This document shows, piece by piece, positions 1 through 39,956 of a stretch of 64,000 bases of DNA. Positions within the stretch are counted from its first letter, which is position 1, and the number at the start of each line of letters is the position of its first letter. The notes below the pieces were generated by a model, which saw only the letters and a program-made list of their open reading frames with translations, had not been told where the DNA came from and did no database searches. This DNA comes from Halobaculum sp. MBLA0147 (GTDB taxonomy: Archaea; Halobacteriota; Halobacteria; Halobacteriales; Haloferacaceae). Location of the stretch: contig NZ_JBGKAD010000001.1 in assembly GCF_041361345.1 (NCBI RefSeq), forward strand, positions 1,240,001-1,304,000, read 5' to 3'. Made by a program: the position numbers and the translations under genes.

Positions 1-699
1 CGACCCGCCGCCCGTCTCGTCGAGCGCACGACCGCTGATGAGCTGGGACTGACTGACGCCGGCGACGCCGGTGCCGTTGTCCGTCTCCGCGCCCGCGATC
101 CCGGCGACGTGCGTACCGTGGTACTCGTCGGTCGCGTCCGGCGCCGGGTCGGCGTCGTTGTCCGCGAAGTCCTCGCCGGGGTCGCTGCCGAAGTTACCGT
201 CGAGGTCCGGGTGGCTGTACTGTACCCCCGTGTCGATGACGGCCAGCGTCACGTCCGAGGAACCGAACGTCGTGTCCCACGCCGCACGAGCGTTGATCAG
301 GTCCAGCGAGGACTGGTTCGGCTCGTCCGGATCGTTCACCGTCGCCAACGTCTCGAAGGTGGCGTTCCGCTCGGCGTACTTGACGTGCTCGCGCTTCGTC
401 ACGTTGTCGATGAAGTTCTCTTTGGCCACGTCCGCCGCCTGGCTCGGGAACTTCACGGCCGCGTACCGCAGCGACTCGTTCGAGTGGACGACCTCGGCGT
501 TGCCCGGCACCGCCGCCTCGACCTCCTTCTCGAGTGCGTCCGCCGCCGCAGAGACGCCGACCACGATCTCGTCCTTCTTCGGCCCCGGTTTCCGGCCGGG
601 TGTCGCCGACACCACTCCGCTCGCGGCGGCTGCCCCCGCAGCCGCACCGGTCGTCTTCAGGAATCCACGCCGCAACATGCCCCTGTCGTTCTCTGACAT
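1..699 (-). CDS. Halolysin-like subtilisin-family (S8) protease, N-terminal part
   Basis: Partial gene that runs off the left edge; 233 codons are visible. It starts with a twin-arginine signal (RRGFLK at residues 10-15, then an Ala-rich stretch), so the protein should be exported folded by Tat. Residues about 40-115 look like an inhibitor-type propeptide. The peptidase domain begins near residue 130, with catalytic Asp156 in AVIDTGVQYSHPDL and catalytic His197 in HGTHVAGIAG; the Ser part lies outside the window. This order matches haloarchaeal halolysins, which are secreted serine proteases. The ATG at 699 is favoured because the Tat motif follows it directly. Confidence 0.93.
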   Translation of the reverse strand, partial: MSENDRGMLRRGFLKTTGAAAGAAAASGVVSATPGRKPGPKKDEIVVGVSAAADALEKEVEAAVPGNAEVVHSNESLRYAAVKFPSQAADVAKENFIDNVTKREHVKYAERNATFETLATVNDPDEPNQSSLDLINARAAWDTTFGSSDVTLAVIDTGVQYSHPDLDGNFGSDPGEDFADNDADPAPDATDEYHGTHVAGIAGAETDNGTGVAGVSQSQLISGRALDETGGGS

Positions 700-885
700 A
701 CTACACACTCCCAGTTCCGAAGCTGGCACTTGATACTTACGAATTACGTGTGAGGATAAGACAGTGCAGTGTAGAAGTACCCTCGCACTGGGTGTATTCC
801 GATCGTATTCACACCCCGTCGAACAAACGTGCGAGAGAGTCTCAGACGCGTGTTGCGGAAACACCCGAGTAAGTTCCAAGCAGTT

Positions 886-913
886 ACGATCATAAATCGT
901 TAGAATTATATAC
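886..913. promoter_or_regulatory. AT-rich inverted repeat plus TATA-like element
   Basis: The gap between the divergent halolysin and NYN genes (700-988) holds no convincing gene. In it, ACGAT-cataa-ATCGT (886-900) is a 5-bp inverted repeat, followed by an AT-rich TATA-like stretch (906-913). It is too far from either start (about 75 bases from 989, about 190 from 699) to be the usual leaderless promoter of either. It may serve a longer-leader transcript or an unannotated RNA. Confidence 0.35.
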
Positions 914-988
914 TACTTGATTGCGATTCGAGCGGGCCGGCCGTCGGCGACAGCGAGCCCTTTTCACCGCCGGTCGGTCACCAAGTGT

Positions 989-1666
989 ATGGAGTGGCTG
1001 CGGCGGTTGTTCGGGAGCGGTGACCGAGACTCCTCGACGGAGGACGGCGGGAGAGCCGCCGGTGACGACGACACCGAGCGGACTGTCGGCGACGACGGCG
1101 ACTCACTCTCGGCGGACGACCCCTACACGTCGGCGGACCCGGAAGCGAAAGTCGAGAGCGACGGCGGCGCGGGGACGACCGAGTCGGTAGTCTCACCGCT
1201 CGACCGTGGCGGGCCACACCCGCCGGGCAGCGTCCCACAGGGAGTCGCACTGTTCGTCGACGGACCGAACGTGTTGCGCGACGAGTTCGACGTGGACCTG
1301 GACGACGTACGCGCGGCGGCGGCGGACGCGGGGCCGCTCGTCGCGACACGGCTGTACCTCGACGAGCACGCGCCACCGGGGCTGATTCAAGCCGCGGAGG
1401 CGCGCGGCTACCGCGTGATCACCACCAGCGGGGACGTGGACGTACGTCTCGCGGTCGACGTGGCCCGGTTCGCCGCCGAGGGGCGCGCCGCGACGATCGC
1501 CGTCGCCTCCCGCGACACGGACTTCAAGCCCGCCGTCGAGGCCGCCAACGAGTACGGACTCGCGACGCTCGCCATCGCACCCGGGAGTCACGGCCGCTCG
1601 GACGCGCTCCGCAACGCCGTCGACCGTGGGATCACACTCGAGGAAGCGACCGACGAGAGCGAGTGA
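989..1666 (+). CDS. NYN (PIN-like) domain protein, putative nuclease
   Basis: 225 residues. The first 70 or so are acidic and probably disordered. The rest is an NYN domain, a PIN-fold family linked to RNA or DNA cleavage: it opens with VALFVDGPNVLR (first metal-binding Asp), has a central DVDVRLAVD stretch, and ends with ASRDTDFKPAVEAANEYG carrying further acidic metal ligands. ATG 989 was chosen over an upstream in-frame start at 917 because TTTTCACC lies about 28 bases before it, fitting a leaderless transcript. It converges on the GAF-domain gene with 4 bases between stop codons. The substrate is unknown. Confidence 0.85.
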   Translation: MEWLRRLFGSGDRDSSTEDGGRAAGDDDTERTVGDDGDSLSADDPYTSADPEAKVESDGGAGTTESVVSPLDRGGPHPPGSVPQGVALFVDGPNVLRDEFDVDLDDVRAAAADAGPLVATRLYLDEHAPPGLIQAAEARGYRVITTSGDVDVRLAVDVARFAAEGRAATIAVASRDTDFKPAVEAANEYGLATLAIAPGSHGRSDALRNAVDRGITLEEATDESE

Positions 1667-3526: not shown

Positions 3527-3720
3527 CGGACCTTCAGCGCGTAGCTGCCCGGACTGTCGACGTTCATCTCCTCGCCGATCTCGGACTCCTCCGGGTGGGG
3601 GACGATCACGTACCCCGCCCAGTCTTCCGTCAGCGACGAGGAGCCGCAGTTGTCACACGTCTGGCTGTCGGGGTCGTTGACGTAGTGACACTCGCGACAG
3701 GCGAGACGATCCTCCGCCAT
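3523..3720 (-). CDS. spt4: Transcription elongation factor Spt4 (RNA polymerase subunit E'')
   Basis: 65 residues. Four cysteines in two CxxC pairs (CRECHYV and CDNCGSS) form the zinc ribbon of archaeal Spt4, which partners Spt5 (NusG-like) in processive transcription. The ending SPGSYALKVR is typical of the family. The start overlaps the last base of rpo7 (3720) and the stop overlaps the start of the dephospho-CoA kinase, so these three genes form one tightly packed operon. Confidence 0.96.
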   Translation of the reverse strand: MAEDRLACRECHYVNDPDSQTCDNCGSSSLTEDWAGYVIVPHPEESEIGEEMNVDSPGSYALKVR

Positions 3721-4301
3721 CAGGCGTCACCTGCCGCCGCTTCCTCGTTCTCGCGTCGCCGCCGGTCGGACTCCAGCCACTCGTGTTTGCCCAACCCCGG
3801 CTGCTTCGCGGTCAACCCGATCTTCGAGTCGCGTGGGTTGCGCTCGTCGATGCTCTTCGTGACGATCCGGACGCGCACGTCGTCGCCGACGCCCAGCGTC
3901 TGGTTCGACTCCGTCGAGGCCAGCTGCTGGTTCTCCCCGTCGTACGCGAGGTACTCGTCGGAGATCTGCGAGACGTGCAACAGCCCGTCGACGGGACCGA
4001 TCCCGACGAACGCGCCGAACTCGACGACCTCGACCACGCTGCCGTCGACGACCTCCTGCATCTCCGGGTCGAACGTCAGCGCGTCGAACTCCGCCTCGTA
4101 GTAGACGCCCGGCCGACTCGGGAGCACCGACCCCTCGCCGATGTCGTGGACCTCGACGACGCTGACGACGCTGCCGGCGTCCTCGTCGAGACGGCCCTCG
4201 AGTTTGTCCTGCAGTAGCTCCTTCACTCGCTGTGGAGTCACGTCCGCCAGGTGTGCCGGCGGCACCTCCACCGTGTCCTTGAGTCGTACCCGTTTGTACA
4301 T
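3720..4301 (-). CDS. rpo7: DNA-directed RNA polymerase subunit Rpo7 (RpoE')
   Basis: 193 residues. The N-terminal half (MYKRVRLKDTVEVPPAHL onwards) is the tip/RNP domain that docks on core polymerase. Residues about 80-165 form an S1 RNA-binding domain (VVDGSVVEVVEFGAFVGIGPVDGLLHVSQIS). The C-terminus adds a charged tail. Rpo7 pairs with Rpo4 as the polymerase stalk, aiding open-complex formation and RNA binding. It is the first gene of the compact rpo7-spt4-kinase run; the PIN and eif2g genes lie upstream on the same strand after a 144-base gap. Confidence 0.96.
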   Translation of the reverse strand: MYKRVRLKDTVEVPPAHLADVTPQRVKELLQDKLEGRLDEDAGSVVSVVEVHDIGEGSVLPSRPGVYYEAEFDALTFDPEMQEVVDGSVVEVVEFGAFVGIGPVDGLLHVSQISDEYLAYDGENQQLASTESNQTLGVGDDVRVRIVTKSIDERNPRDSKIGLTAKQPGLGKHEWLESDRRRRENEEAAAGDA

Positions 4302-4445
4302 TGTCGTGTTGTGTGGTGGGCCCGGAGGCCCGTCGTGTGGGCGTCGGCCGCCGCGACCGCCCGCCCGCGTCGTGGGCCCTCTGGCCCGCTCGTTTGCTCG
4401 CGATCCGTCTCGTCTCCGCCGGGCCGCCCGTCCCGGCGACCGCCA

Positions 4446-9685: not shown

Positions 9686-9785
9686 GCGCCGACGGTCGGC
9701 AGAGTGGTCGCCGTCGTCGGTTACCGAAGCGGTCGGCGCCGACAGTCGGCGACGTGGTCGCCGTCGTCAGTTGGCGAAGTGGTCG
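9686..9785. repeat. Imperfect 50-bp tandem duplication overlapping the rpl11 3' end
   Basis: A 50-bp unit beginning GCGCCGACGGTCGGC at 9686 is repeated at 9736 with several mismatches. The second copy includes the last codons and stop of rpl11 (9767-9785), so the first copy is a decayed duplicate of that gene end lying in the spacer before the PHP gene. Confidence 0.75.
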
Positions 9786-10243
9786 TCGTACTCGCCGTCG
9801 TCGATCCGCTGCTTGAACTCGCGGGCGTCGTTACCCTCGACGGTGACACCGAGCGAGGCGCAGGTACCGACGATCTCCTTGGCGGCGTTCTTCAGGTCGT
9901 ACGCCAGCAGGTCCGTCTGTTTCTGCTCGGCGACCGTCTTCACCTGCTCGACCGTCATGTCGGCGACGAAGTCCTCCTGGGGCTCGCCCGAGCCGGTCTC
10001 GAAGCCGGCCTCGTCTTTGATCAGTTCCGCCGTCGGCGGCACACCGACCTCGATCTCGAAGGAGCCGTCCTCCTCGTAGTCGACGGTGACCGGCACTTCC
10101 ATCCCGTCGAAGGCGGCGGTCTCGTCGTTGATCTCCTGCACGACAGCCTGCACGTCGACCGGCGTCGGACCGAGCTCCGGCCCGAGCGGCGGACCGGGGT
10201 CCACCTGGCCGCCGGGGACGAGTACTTCGATAGATCCAGCCAT
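9767..10243 (-). CDS. rpl11: Large-subunit ribosomal protein L11 (uL11)
   Basis: 158 residues. GSIEVLVPGGQVDPGPPLGPELGP is the classic L11 N-terminal signature (archaeal form), and KNAAKEIVGTCASLGVTVEG is the C-terminal RNA-binding domain contacting the GTPase-centre 23S rRNA. A GCTTAAACT element about 33 bases before the ATG is its promoter. It stands alone here, without rpl1/rpl10/rpl12 beside it, as is usual for haloarchaeal L11. Confidence 0.97.
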   Translation of the reverse strand: MAGSIEVLVPGGQVDPGPPLGPELGPTPVDVQAVVQEINDETAAFDGMEVPVTVDYEEDGSFEIEVGVPPTAELIKDEAGFETGSGEPQEDFVADMTVEQVKTVAEQKQTDLLAYDLKNAAKEIVGTCASLGVTVEGNDAREFKQRIDDGEYDDHFAN

Positions 10244-11391: not shown

Positions 11392-11540
11392 CTCGGCCCC
11401 ACCGAGACACGGGCGGCCGGTCACGGTCGGGTGGCACCCGTCTGCCGAGCCGCCCGCGTCGAGGGTGACCGACCGCCGAGTCGCTCCAGTCGCGCGACGG
11501 ACAACCCCACGTTTTTGACGGCGCCACTCCAAGTGTGGGT

Positions 11541-12488
11541 ATGAGCAGTCGGCGGCGGAAGCCGGACTGGCTGAAGATGCGACCCCCGTCGGGGCAGCGG
11601 TTCGCGGAGATCAAGTCGACGCTCCGCGAGCACGACCTCCACACGGTGTGTGAGGAGGCGAACTGCCCGAACCTCGGGGAGTGTTGGAGCGGGAGCGACG
11701 GCCCCGGCAGCGGTCCCGGGACGGCGACGTTCATGTTGATGGGCGACCGCTGTTCCCGCGGCTGTAACTTCTGTGACGTGGAGACCGGCGGGATGGACCC
11801 GCTGGACGAGGACGAACCCGCGAACGTCGCGGACGCGGTCGCGGAGATCGGCCTCGACTACGTCGTGTTGACCTCCGTCGACCGCGACGACCTGCCGGAC
11901 GGCGGGTCGCGACACTTCGCGGAGACGATCCGCGAGATCAAGCGTCGCGACCCGGAGATCATGGTCGAGGTGTTGATCCCGGACTTCGGCGGCGACGAGA
12001 CCGCCGTCCGACGGATAATCGACGCCGAGCCGGACGTGATCGCACACAACGTCGAGACCGTCGAGCGGCTCCAGTGGCCGGTGCGGGACCGCCGCGCGGG
12101 GTACGAGCAGACGCTGGACGTGCTCGAACAGGTCGACCGGGAGTCCGACATCCACACGAAGACGAGCATCATGCTCGGGCTCGGCGAGTACGACCACGAG
12201 GTGTACCGGACGCTGCGGGACCTCCGGAACGTCGGCGTCGACATCGTCACGCTGGGCCAGTACCTCCAGCCGTCGCGCTCGCACCTCGACGTGTTCGAGT
12301 ACGTCCACCCGGACGCCTTCGAGACGTGGCGCCGCGTCGCCGAGGAGGAACTCGACTTCCTCTACTGTGCCTCCGGCCCGATGGTCCGCTCGTCGTACAA
12401 GGCCGGCGAACTGTTCGTCGAGGCGCTGTCGCGGGAGGGGACCTCCGTCGAGGCCGCCCGCGCCGAGGCACGCGCCGCGAGCGACTGA
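11541..12488 (+). CDS. lipA: Lipoyl synthase (radical SAM)
   Basis: 315 residues. It has the auxiliary cluster motif C-x4-C-x5-C (CEEANCPNLGEC) and the radical-SAM motif CSRGCNFCD, ending in the conserved RSSYKAGE serine region that ligates the auxiliary iron-sulfur cluster. It inserts sulfur into octanoyl groups on E2/GcvH proteins, so its substrate here is plausibly the lipoyl domain of the pdhC product 5 kb downstream. A GTTTTTGAC promoter lies about 27 bases before the ATG. Confidence 0.96.
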   Translation: MSSRRRKPDWLKMRPPSGQRFAEIKSTLREHDLHTVCEEANCPNLGECWSGSDGPGSGPGTATFMLMGDRCSRGCNFCDVETGGMDPLDEDEPANVADAVAEIGLDYVVLTSVDRDDLPDGGSRHFAETIREIKRRDPEIMVEVLIPDFGGDETAVRRIIDAEPDVIAHNVETVERLQWPVRDRRAGYEQTLDVLEQVDRESDIHTKTSIMLGLGEYDHEVYRTLRDLRNVGVDIVTLGQYLQPSRSHLDVFEYVHPDAFETWRRVAEEELDFLYCASGPMVRSSYKAGELFVEALSREGTSVEAARAEARAASD

Positions 12489-12680
12489 TCGCGCGCGACC
12501 GACCCCTCGGGCGAGACTGCCCCCCCCACGAACGATCCACTCCCCGCGAGTGACCGAACCGCGCGCGCCGTCGCCGCCGGACACAGTGTTCACTCACTCT
12601 CTGTCCTATTTTATCATCTCAGCCAGACGATTACAACGGAAAAGTCGTTGTGTCCCGAGCCCGAACCACCGGCACGGACG

Positions 12681-14948
12681 ATGGAGACGACGTGGCTCGC
12701 GGACGGGCTGCGGGTGACGGACGCCGCGAAGAACACCGTCGTCGTCGGTCTCGACGGCTGGGACGAGAGCGTGCCGGCCCCGTCCGTCGCGGCGGCGTTG
12801 GGGGCAGTCGACACCGGTCCGGAGGAGCCGTCGAGCCCCGTCTCCGGCAGCGTCGAGCGAATCCGGTACCCGCCGGTCGCCTCGGCGGTGATCGACCTCG
12901 CGGACGGAGCGCGACGGGACGTACTCGGCGAGGAGTCGGTGTCGGTGCCACCGGGACCGCACCTGTTGCGTGCCGAGGCGAGCGTCCGGGTCTACGTGCG
13001 GTTCGACGGCCCGGCGACGCTGTCGCTGGAACGACTCCGCGATCCGGACACCGACAGGCGGTTCGAACTCCGGTTCGCGGAGCCGACCCCGGTGTCGCTC
13101 GCGTTCGGACGAGGGTTCGACTCGACCGCGTCGACGGTGACCGTCCCGCGGACGCCGGAGGGCGTGGCGACGGCGCTGTCGGTGTCGGCGGCCGCCGTCG
13201 AGACGGCGTCGCCGGACCGCTCGTGGCCGACACAGCGCACCCGACCGCCGCGAGTGACGTTCGGCGAGACGGTGTCCGTGCCGGAGTCACTCGCCGTTGA
13301 TCGCGTCCAGTCGGAGATTCGGCTCGTCGTCCCGCGGGACCTGCGGTACCTGGTCACCGGTGCGTCGCTGGCACACTACCTCGGCGCGACCGTGCTGGCG
13401 GTGCCGGACGCGGATCCACGGCTGGTCGTCGGCGACCACGTCGAGCCGCTGGGTGAGATCGACACGTTCGAGCGGCGGACAACGGCACTCCTGCGGCGGT
13501 GTTTCTACCTCGACTGTGTCGCCCGCGGTGCGGGGCCACACGGCGGCCCGCTGGCGGCCGCGGGGACCCTCGACGAGTTGGGCCTGGACGCCGAGCGGCT
13601 GTACGAGGCGCCGCTGGCGGAACGTGTCCGGCGGTACCTCGCGGCGCCGTTCGAGACGGTCACAGACGAGTTCCCGGAGTGGCACCTCTCCGTGTCGGTC
13701 GCGCCGCGATACGAGCACGTCCCCACGCTGCAGGCGCTGTTGCCCGACCTCCCGCACGTCTTCCGGCCGGCGGGACGGGAGTTGTCGGAGACGGAGTGGT
13801 TGGAACTGTCCGTCGAGGACCGACTCGGGCGCGACCGGCCGACGACGGGCGACACGACCGCCCTCGCTCGCGGACGGACGACCGACGGGGGGACGGGAAC
13901 TCTCGGTCGGGGCGTCGAGGTCGACGACACCGAGACGACGACCCGCGAAGTGTCGAACGACGACACCGAGACGACGACCCGCGAAGTGTCGAACGACGAC
14001 ACCGAGACGACGACCCGCGAAGTGTCGAACGTCGAGTTGGTGCGACCACGGCCGCGGCCGGGGCGGACGCGCGGGTGGTTGGCGGACGGCGTCCCGGTCG
14101 GCGGGTTCGAGATCGTCCCGGCCGCCTACGAGAACCGGGCGCAGTACCTCGACGACGGTGAGGGACCGCTGCGGGTCGTCGCGGTGTTGAACGACGCGTC
14201 GATGCGCGCCGAACACGACCGAGCGGTCGCCCACTACGAGTCGCGCGCCGATCGGCTGAACGCCGACGTGACGGTACGACGGAACCTCTCGACGGCGGAG
14301 TTGGCACGCACCTTCGAGGCGGAGTCGGACCTCCTCCACTTCGTCGGCCACCGCGACGAGGCGGGGCTGGCGTGTCCGGACGGTCACCTCGCGACGAGCA
14401 GTCTCTCGACCTCGCGAGCACGGACGTTCTTCCTGAACGCCTGTGGCTCGTACCCGGAGGGGCGCACGTTGATCGAGAAGGGCTCCGTCGCGGGTGGCGT
14501 CACCTTCGAGCGCGTCCTCGACGACCAGGCGGCGCGGGTCGGGACGACGTTCGCGCGGCTGATGGTGCTCGGGTTCTCCGTCCAACGCGGGCTCGACTAC
14601 GCCCGGCGGCAGATCCTGACGCCGCGCGACTACGCCGTCGTCGGCGACGGCTCGCACGTCGTCGCCCAGAACGACTCGCTGGTGCCGCCGCGTCGGTGGC
14701 TGTTCGACGACGGGGACGACCGGTACCGACTCTTGATCGACGCCGCCGAGATCTGGGCCCACGGCGGCGAGAGCAGGTCGACACTGGTCGACGACGACGA
14801 GCGGTACCTGTACGGTCGCGAACGGGTGTACACGCTGGAGCCGGCGACGCTCGACCGCTACCTCGCGACCGCCGAGGCTCCCATCGTGTACGACGAGCGC
14901 CTGTGGTGGCCCGCCGACCTCCGCGCCGAACTCCTCGACTCGGGGTAG
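12681..14948 (+). CDS. CHAT/caspase-fold domain protein
   Basis: 755 residues from ATG 12681 (an in-frame GTG at 12648 would add 11). Residues 1-400 match nothing I recognise. Residues 415-450 are three exact copies of the 12-residue repeat DDTETTTREVSN. The C-terminal region from about 470 looks like a CHAT-type caspase fold: DLLHFVGHRDE with likely catalytic His557, and TFFLNACGSYPEG with likely Cys588 ending a hydrophobic strand. Length and layout (large N-terminal region plus C-terminal protease) resemble haloarchaeal CHAT proteins. Proteolytic activity is inferred from the His/Cys pair only. It sits 200 bases before pdhA but has its own TATTTTATC promoter. Confidence 0.7.
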   Translation: METTWLADGLRVTDAAKNTVVVGLDGWDESVPAPSVAAALGAVDTGPEEPSSPVSGSVERIRYPPVASAVIDLADGARRDVLGEESVSVPPGPHLLRAEASVRVYVRFDGPATLSLERLRDPDTDRRFELRFAEPTPVSLAFGRGFDSTASTVTVPRTPEGVATALSVSAAAVETASPDRSWPTQRTRPPRVTFGETVSVPESLAVDRVQSEIRLVVPRDLRYLVTGASLAHYLGATVLAVPDADPRLVVGDHVEPLGEIDTFERRTTALLRRCFYLDCVARGAGPHGGPLAAAGTLDELGLDAERLYEAPLAERVRRYLAAPFETVTDEFPEWHLSVSVAPRYEHVPTLQALLPDLPHVFRPAGRELSETEWLELSVEDRLGRDRPTTGDTTALARGRTTDGGTGTLGRGVEVDDTETTTREVSNDDTETTTREVSNDDTETTTREVSNVELVRPRPRPGRTRGWLADGVPVGGFEIVPAAYENRAQYLDDGEGPLRVVAVLNDASMRAEHDRAVAHYESRADRLNADVTVRRNLSTAELARTFEAESDLLHFVGHRDEAGLACPDGHLATSSLSTSRARTFFLNACGSYPEGRTLIEKGSVAGGVTFERVLDDQAARVGTTFARLMVLGFSVQRGLDYARRQILTPRDYAVVGDGSHVVAQNDSLVPPRRWLFDDGDDRYRLLIDAAEIWAHGGESRSTLVDDDERYLYGRERVYTLEPATLDRYLATAEAPIVYDERLWWPADLRAELLDSG
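13923..14030 (+). repeat. Three exact 36-bp tandem copies inside the CHAT-protein gene
   Basis: Units start at 13923, 13959 and 13995 and are identical at the DNA level, encoding DDTETTTREVSN three times in frame. Exact identity implies recent expansion or active homogenisation. It forms an acidic Thr-rich linker before the protease-like domain. Confidence 0.97.
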
Positions 14949-15146
14949 GCCGCACGGCGGCCGATACTGTGGCGGGGGCGGTGGTCTCGTCGGGAACGCC
15001 GAACGTCGAACCGTCCACCCGGGACACCGAACGTACGTTCGATCCCGGCGCCGTCCGGGAGGTGTCCGGCCTGGCGTCGGCTGGCAAAACTTACGAAAAC
15101 ACTATGCCGCGAGAGGGGAAGGTTGTGGTATGCGAAGGTGGGTACC

Positions 15147-16268
15147 GTGAGTACGCTCGAGCGCGATCCGACGGAGGACATGGTACGGGTACTCGACGAG
15201 GACGGGGGCGTCGTCGGCGACGTGCCGGACCTCGACGAGGACGAACTCGTGGAGATGTACCGCCAGATGCGGCTGGCGCGTCACTTCGACGAGCGGGCCG
15301 TCTCCCTGAACCGGCAGGGACGGATGGGCACCTACCCGCCGCTGGCGGGGCAGGAGGGTGCCCAGATCGGCTCCGCGATGGCACTGGCCGAAGACGACTG
15401 GATGGTCCCGTCCTACCGGGAGCACGCCGCCGCCGTGGTGCGTGGGCTCCCGCTGCGGGACACGCTCCGCTACTGGATGGGTGACGAACGGGGCAACTCC
15501 GTCCCGGAGGACGCGAACATCTTCACCGTCGCCGTCCCCATCGCCTCCCAGATCCCCCACGCGACGGGGATGGCGTGGGCACACGAGCTCCAGTCGGAGT
15601 CCGTCGACCGGGCGTTCCTCTGTTACTTCGGCGACGGGGCGACCAGCGAGGGAGACTTCCACGAGGGACTGAACTTCGCGGGCGTGTTCGACACCCCGAA
15701 CGTCTTCTTCTGTAACAACAACCAGTGGGCGATCTCGGTGCCCCGCGAACGCCAGACTGCCTCCGAGACGCTGGCCCAGAAGGCCGAGGCGTACGGCTTC
15801 GAGGGCGTCCAGGTGGACGGGATGGACCCGCTGGCCGTCTACAGCGTCACCCGCGAGGCGCTCCAGAAGGCGAAAGAGCCCGACGAAGACCAACTCCGCC
15901 CGACGATGATCGAGGCGGTCCAGTACCGGTTCGGCGCACACACGACCGCCGACGACCCCTCCGTCTACCGCGAGGAGGAGGAGGAGGAACGCTGGCGGGC
16001 GAAGGACCCGATCCCACGCTTGGAGTCGTACCTGCGGAGTCAGGACATCTTGGACGACGACCGCGTGGAGGCGATCGGCGAGAGCGTCGAGGACGAGGTG
16101 GCGGACGCCATCGACGCGGCGGAGGCGATGTCCGACCCCGGACCGGACCCGCAGTCGATGTTCGAGCACGTGTACGCGGAACAGACGCCGGAGTTGCGCG
16201 AGCAGGCGGCCGAGTTCGCGCGACTCCGCGAGGAGTACGGCGACGGCGCCTTCCTCGAGGAGGAGTGA
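15147..16268 (+). CDS. pdhA: Pyruvate (2-oxoacid) dehydrogenase E1 component, alpha subunit
   Basis: 373 residues from GTG 15147. It has the E1-alpha thiamine diphosphate motif GDGATSEGDFHEGLNFAGVF...NNQWAIS near residues 160-200 and the preceding RQMRLARHFDERA region. With the beta subunit it decarboxylates a 2-oxoacid onto the lipoyl domain of E2. It is the first of three closely packed genes (2 bases to pdhB, 3 bases to pdhC). An AAAACTTACGAAA element about 60 bases upstream may be the promoter. The 2-oxoacid substrate could be pyruvate or a branched-chain keto acid. Confidence 0.93.
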   Translation: MSTLERDPTEDMVRVLDEDGGVVGDVPDLDEDELVEMYRQMRLARHFDERAVSLNRQGRMGTYPPLAGQEGAQIGSAMALAEDDWMVPSYREHAAAVVRGLPLRDTLRYWMGDERGNSVPEDANIFTVAVPIASQIPHATGMAWAHELQSESVDRAFLCYFGDGATSEGDFHEGLNFAGVFDTPNVFFCNNNQWAISVPRERQTASETLAQKAEAYGFEGVQVDGMDPLAVYSVTREALQKAKEPDEDQLRPTMIEAVQYRFGAHTTADDPSVYREEEEEERWRAKDPIPRLESYLRSQDILDDDRVEAIGESVEDEVADAIDAAEAMSDPGPDPQSMFEHVYAEQTPELREQAAEFARLREEYGDGAFLEEE

Positions 16269-38285: not shown

Positions 38286-39956
38286 TCACTCCGCCGGGAG
38301 TCGACTCGCCGGCCCCTCGTGGACCACGAACTCCAGCGCGTTCACGAGGTAGTGGGCGACGACGACGGCGAGGAAGCTCCCCGTGAGGACGAACACGCCC
38401 GCCAGCACCGCGCCGAGGAGTCCGGTGACGACCATCCCGGCGGTTCCCTGTGCGCTGTGTGCGAGGCCGAACGCGACCGAGGAGGCGACGACGAGCAGCC
38501 AGACGGGGACCGCGAACCCCGCCGCGAAGGCCCCCACCAACACCGCGCGGAACAACAACTCCTCGAACAGCGCGATCACCGGCAACACCCCGGCCAACAA
38601 CAGCCACCACTCGCCACGTGTCGTCGGTGCCAGTGCACCACGGAGCGCCTCCGCCGGATCGATCCCGAACCGCTGGCCCAGTCGTCCGCCGGACTCGCTG
38701 GCGACCCACAGGCCGATCCCGGCGACGACGCCGATCGCGAGGTCGAGTCCCGTCGCCACCGGCACCAGTCCCAGCGTCGCCGCCGGCACCCCCGCGAAGA
38801 CGATGGCCGAGACGAGCAGTCCGGCGAACAACAACTGCGAGCCGGCGACGTTCAACAGGAGGACTCGCGTCGAGAGCTGTCGGCTCCCGACGGTGACGCC
38901 GTCCCGCTCCGCCGGGATCGGTGGGTCGAACGCGTCCGTCTCGCCGTCGACCACGGGCCCAGCACCGCCGAACGGAGTGTCGCTCGGCAGCCCGTCACCC
39001 ACCGGTGTGTCACTCACCGGGGCGTCGCTCACCGGCGTACTGCCGACCGGCCCGTCGCTCACGTCGACACCGGAACGCGACTCGTTCGACGGGACTCGCG
39101 TGGAGGTCTCCGGCCGCCGCTCGTCGCTCCCCGTCCGCGGCCGCCTCGTCGACTCGCTCGCCGTCGCGTCCTCCTCGCGGTCCCCCGTCGACTCGCTCGC
39201 CGTCGCGTCCTCCTCGCGGTCCCCCGTCGACTCGCCGGTCGAGTTGGGTGGGAACTCCGGATCCCGGTCGTCGTCACCCCACCGGTCGACCGGCGTCCCG
39301 CCGTCGTCCGTCCAGCGGTCACGGCTGTCCTCGGGGTCGCGCCAGCGGTCGGCCGGACCAGTCCGGTCGGTCGGTGTCGACCGCGTCGGATCACTGTCGA
39401 GTGACGCCCGAGTCGGGTCGTCGTCGAGTGACGCCCGAGTCGGGTCGTCGGCCGCCGGCGCTCGCCGGTCCGCGTCGTCGGACTGCGACGCGTCGGTCGA
39501 CGCGCCACCGCGTCCGTCTCCACCCGTCGTGTCGACCGGGTCGCGCGTGTCCCCCGTCCGGTCGACTGCAGGGCTCTCTCCCGTGTCGCGCTCGTCGTAG
39601 CCGGCCCTCTCGGTCGGCGGACCGGCCGCGTAGTCCTGCGGGTCGGGGTAGTCGGACTCCGAGAGTGTCGTCCGCTCGGTCCCGCCGGGGCCGGACAACG
39701 GGTCCGTCGGCTCGTCGCCGGCGAGTCGGTCCCGCAGCACCGCCACGCGACCGCCGGAGTCGTCGTCCATCCGTGGACTGCCGTCGACCTCGGCGGCTGC
39801 CGACACGTTCGACCCACCGTCGACCGGTCTCTCCGACGGGTCGTCCAACCGCCCGCTCGGTCCGTCGCCGACCAAGGCGGCAGAGCTCCTGGTGAGTGCG
39901 AGTAACAGCCCGAGCAACACGACGACGATCCCGGAGAAAGCGGTCCAACGCGTCAC
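38286..39956 (-). CDS. CPBP-family intramembrane metalloprotease with long disordered N-terminal region
   Basis: 556 residues from GTG 39956. One membrane segment at residues 8-28 is followed by about 310 residues of acidic Ser/Thr/Asp-rich disordered sequence, containing two exact 13-residue repeats (GDREEDATASEST) and repeats of the DDPTRASLD type. The C-terminal 230 residues are a CPBP domain with about eight helices: EELLFR motif near 480, GLAHSAQG near 510 and AHYLVNALEF near 540, the Abi/CAAX-protease zinc ligands. It lies 31 bases after lonB on the same strand. The long extension is odd for the family. Confidence 0.85.
   Translation of the reverse strand: MTRWTAFSGIVVVLLGLLLALTRSSAALVGDGPSGRLDDPSERPVDGGSNVSAAAEVDGSPRMDDDSGGRVAVLRDRLAGDEPTDPLSGPGGTERTTLSESDYPDPQDYAAGPPTERAGYDERDTGESPAVDRTGDTRDPVDTTGGDGRGGASTDASQSDDADRRAPAADDPTRASLDDDPTRASLDSDPTRSTPTDRTGPADRWRDPEDSRDRWTDDGGTPVDRWGDDDRDPEFPPNSTGESTGDREEDATASESTGDREEDATASESTRRPRTGSDERRPETSTRVPSNESRSGVDVSDGPVGSTPVSDAPVSDTPVGDGLPSDTPFGGAGPVVDGETDAFDPPIPAERDGVTVGSRQLSTRVLLLNVAGSQLLFAGLLVSAIVFAGVPAATLGLVPVATGLDLAIGVVAGIGLWVASESGGRLGQRFGIDPAEALRGALAPTTRGEWWLLLAGVLPVIALFEELLFRAVLVGAFAAGFAVPVWLLVVASSVAFGLAHSAQGTAGMVVTGLLGAVLAGVFVLTGSFLAVVVAHYLVNALEFVVHEGPASRLPAE
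39147..39234. repeat. 39-bp tandem repeat inside the CPBP gene
   Basis: Two exact copies start at 39147 and 39186, with a partial third at 39225. They encode GDREEDATASEST on the minus strand, within the disordered region. A nearby 27-bp repeat near 39398-39451 encodes DDPTRASLD. Confidence 0.92.

Follow-up and report, generated by a model that had tools for sequence, protein, structure and literature searches.

The 64,000-nt stretch of DNA analysed here (the window) encodes a member of an unnamed haloarchaeal protein family that, as modelled, consists of an N-terminal lobe (N-lobe), for which structure searches gave no clear match, followed by a linker and a CHAT-like protease lobe. Three identical 36-bp repeats within the gene are incidental; its substance is this protease family, which is partly paired with a transcription regulator. 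Its members are most likely regulatory endopeptidases, an activity that we infer. The fuller proposal, of a haloarchaeal clan-CD, CHAT-type cysteine endopeptidase that would be switched by its N-lobe and would cut a regulator, joins a predicted fold and a conserved dyad to a presumed activity, and we regard its chances as evenly balanced. A caspase-fold protease family present in most Haloarchaea has apparently gone unnamed so far, and we found no literature on it among open-licence PMC papers.

Predicted fold and presumed catalytic residues

The open reading frame encodes 755 amino acids, and its translation places His at residue 557 and Cys at residue 588, as in the initial annotation. An alternative start, TTG at 12648, would extend the protein to 766 aa; the alignment of the nearest relatives begins at the ATG instead. 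The AT-rich, TATA-like stretch at 12608-12617, about 65 nt 5' of the ATG, suggests, from a reading of the sequence only, a promoter of the gene's own, apart from lipA. The features of the locus are as follows.

11535-12488, plus strand: upstream neighbour, presumably lipA-like, also next to the orthologs of G001 and G002 (context only)
12681-14948, plus strand: coding sequence of the CHAT-like protein, 755 aa plus stop (ORF translation; homologues similar in length)
12681-13823, plus strand: N-lobe, residues 1-381, beta-rich at about 1-155, then alpha/beta at about 159-380
13824-14033, plus strand: variable linker, residues 382-451, predicted disordered (pLDDT <50 over most of it)
13923-13958, plus strand: repeat copy 1, DDTETTTREVSN (36-mer search, Tandem Repeats Finder)
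13959-13994, plus strand: repeat copy 2 (36-mer search, Tandem Repeats Finder)
13995-14030, plus strand: repeat copy 3, whose TREVSN is a linker motif, single in orthologs (36-mer search, ortholog comparison)
14037-14669, plus strand: predicted caspase-fold (CHAT-like) protease domain, residues 453-663 (AlphaFold2, Foldseek, VIA-align, PF12770 matches in members)
14349-14351, plus strand: His557, presumed catalytic, after strand 549-555
14373-14375, plus strand: Cys565, a second, invariant cysteine, eight residues past His557
14442-14444, plus strand: Cys588, presumed nucleophile, after strand 580-586
14670-14945, plus strand: C-terminal extension past the protease core, residues 664-755, with conserved Gly695 and Trp743
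15123-16268, plus strand: downstream neighbour, which we take to be pdhA-like, beside the ortholog in G001 and G003 (context only)

A caspase/CHAT-type fold had been suggested from the letters alone, a suggestion that would fall if structure prediction showed no such fold. A caspase-like fold was predicted, and structural comparisons of the model support it. AlphaFold2, run on the family alignment A2, gave a model with a mean pLDDT of 85.3 and a pTM of 0.85. Foldseek searches of the PDB returned 15 matches at E≤1e-3, and 15/15 were clan-CD proteases (5 SAVED-CHAT chains, 7 separase and 3 gingipain matches), with SAVED-CHAT at the top (E 2.3e-7). VIA-align superposed the model on separase 5fc2 (Z 15.8, 4.0 Å over 241 residues), RgpB 4ief (Z 15.5, 2.8 Å over 241 residues), SAVED-CHAT 8tl0 (Z 15.2, 2.7 Å over 171 residues, model range 492..663) and Craspase 8d9f (Z 13.1, 2.5 Å over 169 residues). 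One match at E≤1e-3 came from a viral structure library, an uncharacterised Myoviridae protein (4.7e-4) whose rmsd of 21.6 makes the match too poor to use.

The N-lobe, in which the alignment columns of Asp278, Cys279 and Trp334 are near-invariant, folded alone with a pLDDT of 91.0 and a pTM of 0.79, and gave zero Foldseek matches at E≤1e-3. Its best VIA-align scores, Z 7.4 for beta-sandwich proteins and 6.4 for Cwp6 (147..367), are at a level that the tool calls common. The separase alignment, covering 220..663 of the full model, extends into the N-lobe and hints at a pseudo-protease lobe within it, but the N-lobe alone gave no such match.

In clan CD, the His and the Cys each lie just after a core strand. 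Both residues of the dyad first read from the sequence, His557 and Cys588, hold such positions in the model, and they are conserved in 72/72 and 71/72 of the distinct full-length members, respectively; Cys565 is invariant (72/72) and Cys279 is kept in 69/72. The dyad is also invariant in all 67 rows of A2. The exception at Cys588 is a paralog from the same genome (L041, G000:C1:723903-725939), which carries Ala instead, and a methanogen protein outside this set (L183, genome G206) has lost both residues. These two are possible pseudo-proteases, and they would fit a family that kept only the fold, as a catalytically dead scaffold. That reading is extremely unlikely in view of the conservation just given, which spans members with 26-59% identity to the window protein. 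For the invariant Cys565, eight residues past His557, redox or metal control would be a guess.

The window protein matched nothing in Pfam up to E 10, hence not PF12770 (CHAT) either. NCBIfam gave FosC only (E 0.14; 12 bits, where the cut-off is 350), and a phmmer search of PDB sequences gave nothing significant. At E≤1e-3, 0/67 A2 members matched any Pfam family. At E≤1, PF12770 was matched by 19 of 45 members, the best at 1.3e-5, and one of the 45 matched PF01364 (Peptidase_C25, E 0.0013). The CHAT model, run against 20 genomes, scored one place above its cut-off (37 bits versus 24); this place, L190, is a full-length family member with 642 bits against the family profile. Since the window protein lies below the Pfam cut-off, we term it CHAT-like and not a Pfam-defined CHAT member.

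The family resembles CHAT proteins (PF12770; SAVED-CHAT 8tl0 and Csx29, the TPR-CHAT protein of Craspase) in its clan-CD caspase fold, in the LNAC context at the Cys, in the placing of His and Cys just past core strands, and in that L190 exceeds the Pfam cut-off. It differs from SAVED-CHAT and Csx29 in its N-lobe and C-terminal extension, and neither a SAVED nor a TPR part was identified. Separases (5fc2, 5fby) include the best VIA-align score, but sequence similarity to them was absent from the PDB profile search. Gingipains R and K (Peptidase_C25), which are secreted proteases, aligned at Z 15.5 and 14.5, and theirs is the model that the single member matched. Archaeal p20-type meta- and orthocaspases (93 sequences, PMC6426788) share clan CD and a His-Cys dyad with the family; however, the Pfam caspase (C14-type) model was matched neither by the window protein (E≤10) nor by the 45 members (E≤1). 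The terms 'CHAT' and 'halo' do not occur in the main text of PMC6426788.

Family members and their linkers

The family is old and extends across Haloarchaea and some methanogens. While an initial pattern scan of genome contigs (118 stretches) held no relative, profile A1 recognised relatives in 365 of 421 pattern stretches. The best 80 of these 365 were kept, and the contigs of these 80 are all haloarchaeal by title. The 72 distinct full-length members come from the better-scoring loci of a longer list, and the 67 rows of A2 omit 14 of the 80 loci (5 with non-ATG starts and 9 near-duplicates). Whole-genome searches found relatives in 46 of 60 genomes, including the window's own genome (G000), which holds nine family genes (14 matches). 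With profile A1, a member was found in 135 of the 151 genomes of the taxonomic family. In a sample of the phylum, 57 of 295 genomes had a member; 53 of them are among the 60 order members shown, and the remaining 4 belong to a single other family. Since these four carry a methyl-CoM reductase gene, we take them to be methanogens; the dyad is intact in three of their four proteins. Thus, whereas the initial annotation placed the protein in a bacterial frame, its host is a haloarchaeon and its named relatives are haloarchaeal. Relatives also occur in 25 plasmid records, annotated mostly as 'hypothetical protein'; one is labelled 'caspase family protein', another 'CHAT domain-containing protein', and a third record bears no annotation.

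Two other ideas about the family were discarded. A viral origin is unsupported, as 82 pattern stretches from viral contigs contained 0 relatives. The N-lobe does not occur as a free-standing protein in the same genome, where each of its 9 matches falls in one of the 9 full-length genes.

CHAT proteases act in defence elsewhere, and SAVED-CHAT and Craspase are among the top structural matches of the model. Together with the multiple copies in the genus and the copies on plasmids, this would suit an infection-triggered defence or cell-suicide effector. We consider such a role unlikely. No PADLOC family matched the window protein, even at E up to 10, most of the fetched loci occupy fixed chromosomal sites with housekeeping neighbours, members are present in 22 of the 25 genera of the taxonomic family, often in one to three copies, and no defence gene was seen beside the window copy. 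The defence role proposed at first thus found no support in PADLOC or among viral contigs.

Two conserved parts, corresponding to residues 1-390 and 440-751 of the window protein, recur in the 72 members and are separated by a variable linker that measures 11-76 residues between fixed columns in the 67 aligned members and 71 in the window protein. The repeat unit DDTETTTREVSN begins at residues 415, 427 and 439 (span 415-450). Its exact 36-mer occurs three times in the window (at 13923, 13959 and 13995) and is absent from the opposite strand. Tandem Repeats Finder reported the array at 13922-14035 (3.2 copies, 98% matches) with a score of 221, the top of 36 rows for the window, so the array is not due to chance. 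As the pLDDT of the full protein falls below 50 at 382-386 and 388-445 only, the repeat-bearing linker is predicted to be disordered.

The three exact copies noted earlier are therefore real, but they are no feature of the family, since orthologs lack them. Of the three orthologs, two carry a short linker in which TREVSN occurs once, and the linker of the third is repetitive but unrelated in sequence. The shared single TREVSN indicates that the window repeat is a local expansion ending in that motif, and the unrelated repeat (STERPSDQ-like) of the third ortholog, L002 from G003, that repeats have grown in the linker at least twice. The copies are probably a species-specific lengthening of the linker, which would be neutral or mildly tuned. 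A function of the three repeats, for example as a multiplied self-cleavage or docking site, would agree with the fact that TREVSN stands once before the protease lobe in three orthologs and that the repeat multiplies precisely this motif. It is nevertheless very unlikely, because the linker is shorter and of different sequence in most members, one ortholog carries an unrelated repetitive run, and the region is predicted to be disordered.

Other tandem repeats were observed in the window. An imperfect 25/50-bp repeat at 9686-9789 lies mostly between the end of what is presumably a ribosomal L11-like gene and a presumed PHP-like gene, and two neighbouring perfect arrays occupy 39147-39235 (39 bp x 2.3) and 39396-39450 (27 bp x 2.0).

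Pairing with TbsP-type regulators

A same-strand gene lies 135-850 nt downstream of the protease gene in 69 of the 80 loci, which contribute 70 ORFs to the cluster; some of the other 11 loci are on shortened contigs. Six of the downstream proteins were scanned, and 6/6 matched both TbsP_N and HTH_TbsP_C, the models named after the Haloferax volcanii transcription regulator TbsP, far above the cut-offs. Published TbsP work, in the portions considered here, centres on trmB and gapII and not on a protease. The initial annotation had seen no obvious partner gene, which is right for the window copy and wrong for the family, whose usual neighbour is a TbsP-type regulator.

TbsP is present in 58 of the 60 genomes. 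The four genomes of the genus have 23, 18, 12 and 16 copies, versus 0-4 in each of the other 56. Most of the 23 regulators in G000 (PF23336) have no adjacent protease gene. We compared the positions of both genes in G000 and G001, the other two genomes of the genus, G002 and G003, being split into many contigs. A TbsP gene lies within 2.5 kb of 5/9 protease genes in G000 and of 5/10 in G001, where contig C2 was taken as about 600 kb long and the entries 231265 and 83249 come from partial matches. An eleventh G001 gene (C2:182434), which stands outside this count, is more than 2.5 kb from any TbsP place. In 10,000 random placements the mean was 0.37 for G000 and 0.40 for G001, with maxima of 3 and 4. 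Chance placement of TbsP is thus rejected.

The histories of the two genes agree in part. Distance matrices of protease and TbsP for 12 pairs of the genus were correlated (Mantel r 0.70, a value that none of 5,000 permutations reached), and both trees contain the groups {L033,L047,L048}, {L036,L037}, {L031,L044,L003} and {L049,L050}. The protease tree additionally joins L032 and L004 to {L031,L044,L003}; the TbsP of L032 is convergent and does not track its protease. Taken together, pairing and tree agreement indicate that protease and regulator were duplicated together and retained together in several, not all, cases. In one major branch of the family, the protease gene and a TbsP-type regulator gene make up a two-gene module, which was copied several times in the genus.

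The window gene and 22 other members from the genus form one clade (23 rows, support 100), in which the window gene forms a group (support 99) with a single gene from each of the three remaining genomes, so that orthologs exist in all four. G001 has the same neighbours on both flanks of its ortholog. G002 shares the lipA flank, its contig stopping inside the ortholog gene, and G003 shares the pdhA flank; lipA was not found within 5.6 kb upstream of the G003 ortholog. No TbsP-type gene lies within 2.5 kb of the window copy, one of 4/9 copies in its genome without such a neighbour. As the other five are paired, we regard the window gene as an orphan paralog of the module members. Its dN/dS against the orthologs is about 0.5, compared with 0.2-0.3 among the orthologs themselves, which suggests weaker constraint; with third positions strongly diverged, this is a hint.

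How might the pair work? The N-lobe would be regulatory and joined by a flexible linker to the caspase-fold lobe with its His557/Cys588 dyad, and the protein would act as a switch that responds to stress or to a metabolite. On receiving its signal, the N-lobe would activate the protease, which would then cut a regulator, either TbsP or a protein controlling TbsP, at one or a few sites and so alter transcription. The window copy, an unlinked paralog, would need to act in trans. The regulator-cutting step is modelled on Craspase, where, according to passages of PMC10028731, the CHAT protease Csx29 cleaves Csx30 and thereby relieves inhibition of a sigma factor. By this analogy, TbsP may be the substrate of the protease. 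The family differs from Craspase in its usual neighbour, TbsP; a CRISPR gene was not seen beside it. It ties a clan-CD protease to an archaeal transcription regulator, somewhat like bacterial Craspase.

Against a step through TbsP, most Haloarchaea have one TbsP whether the protease is present or not, which argues that TbsP works without the protease. Also counting against it, 4/9 copies in G000, the window gene included, lack a TbsP neighbour, and Haloferax-like copies adjoin DUF7504 and HalX genes. The protease might be real and TbsP only its regulator or a long-standing neighbour, with targets elsewhere, for example in turnover or salt stress. The start of TbsP at 135-850 nt downstream makes no tight operon, and the Haloferax-like copy of genome G030 has no TbsP on its contig, TbsP being on another contig. 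The core locus also has further fixed neighbours, among them a gene we take to be folD-like (58/80 loci), so synteny alone holds some genes together here. Plain synteny does not, however, explain that divergent paralogs elsewhere in the genus retain their own adjacent TbsP with matching trees, and we judge the neighbour-only reading possible but somewhat unlikely. The preferred reading remains a regulatory endopeptidase that would act on TbsP or on a protein controlling it.

Haloferax-type members and caspase-like activity

Haloferax-type members form a separate clade in the tree. A DUF7504-like gene lies nearby in at least 14 of 27 loci, directly upstream on the same strand in at least 10 (gaps of 12-123 nt), and a HalX-type response regulator in at least 9 of 27; as the flanks measure just 0.5-1.9 kb, these counts are lower bounds. 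In L160, for instance, the member stands directly behind a DUF7504 gene and close to a HalX response regulator (3643-4383, minus strand; 432-1115, plus strand).

Passages of PMC3615174 describe a dominant, very high and specific caspase-like activity in H. volcanii, state that homologous genes are missing from Archaea and that the protein behind the activity is still to be identified, and cite comparable activity in Halorubrum, Haloarcula, Methanosarcina, Pyrococcus and Sulfolobus. The same passages raise a link between the proteasome and this activity. We consider it improbable that the caspase-like activity of Haloarchaea stems from the present family, although the family could account for the haloarchaeal cases. 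The family offers a single-gene test of which protein underlies the H. volcanii activity, as reported in these parts of PMC3615174.

The genus g28, in which 15/15 genomes carry exactly one member, is very probably Haloferax, judging from nucleotide matches. A plasmid piece of Haloferax larsenii matches genome G072 of g28 at 96% over 694 nt and at 81-86% over 2.3 kb. A plasmid piece of H. lucentense matches G072 and G080 at 94-96%, with the proviso that it is partly an insertion sequence, mobile between genera; another 2 kb piece was uninformative on the identity of g28. Two g28 proteins were examined, one of them 33% identical to the window protein, and both dyad residues are intact in each.
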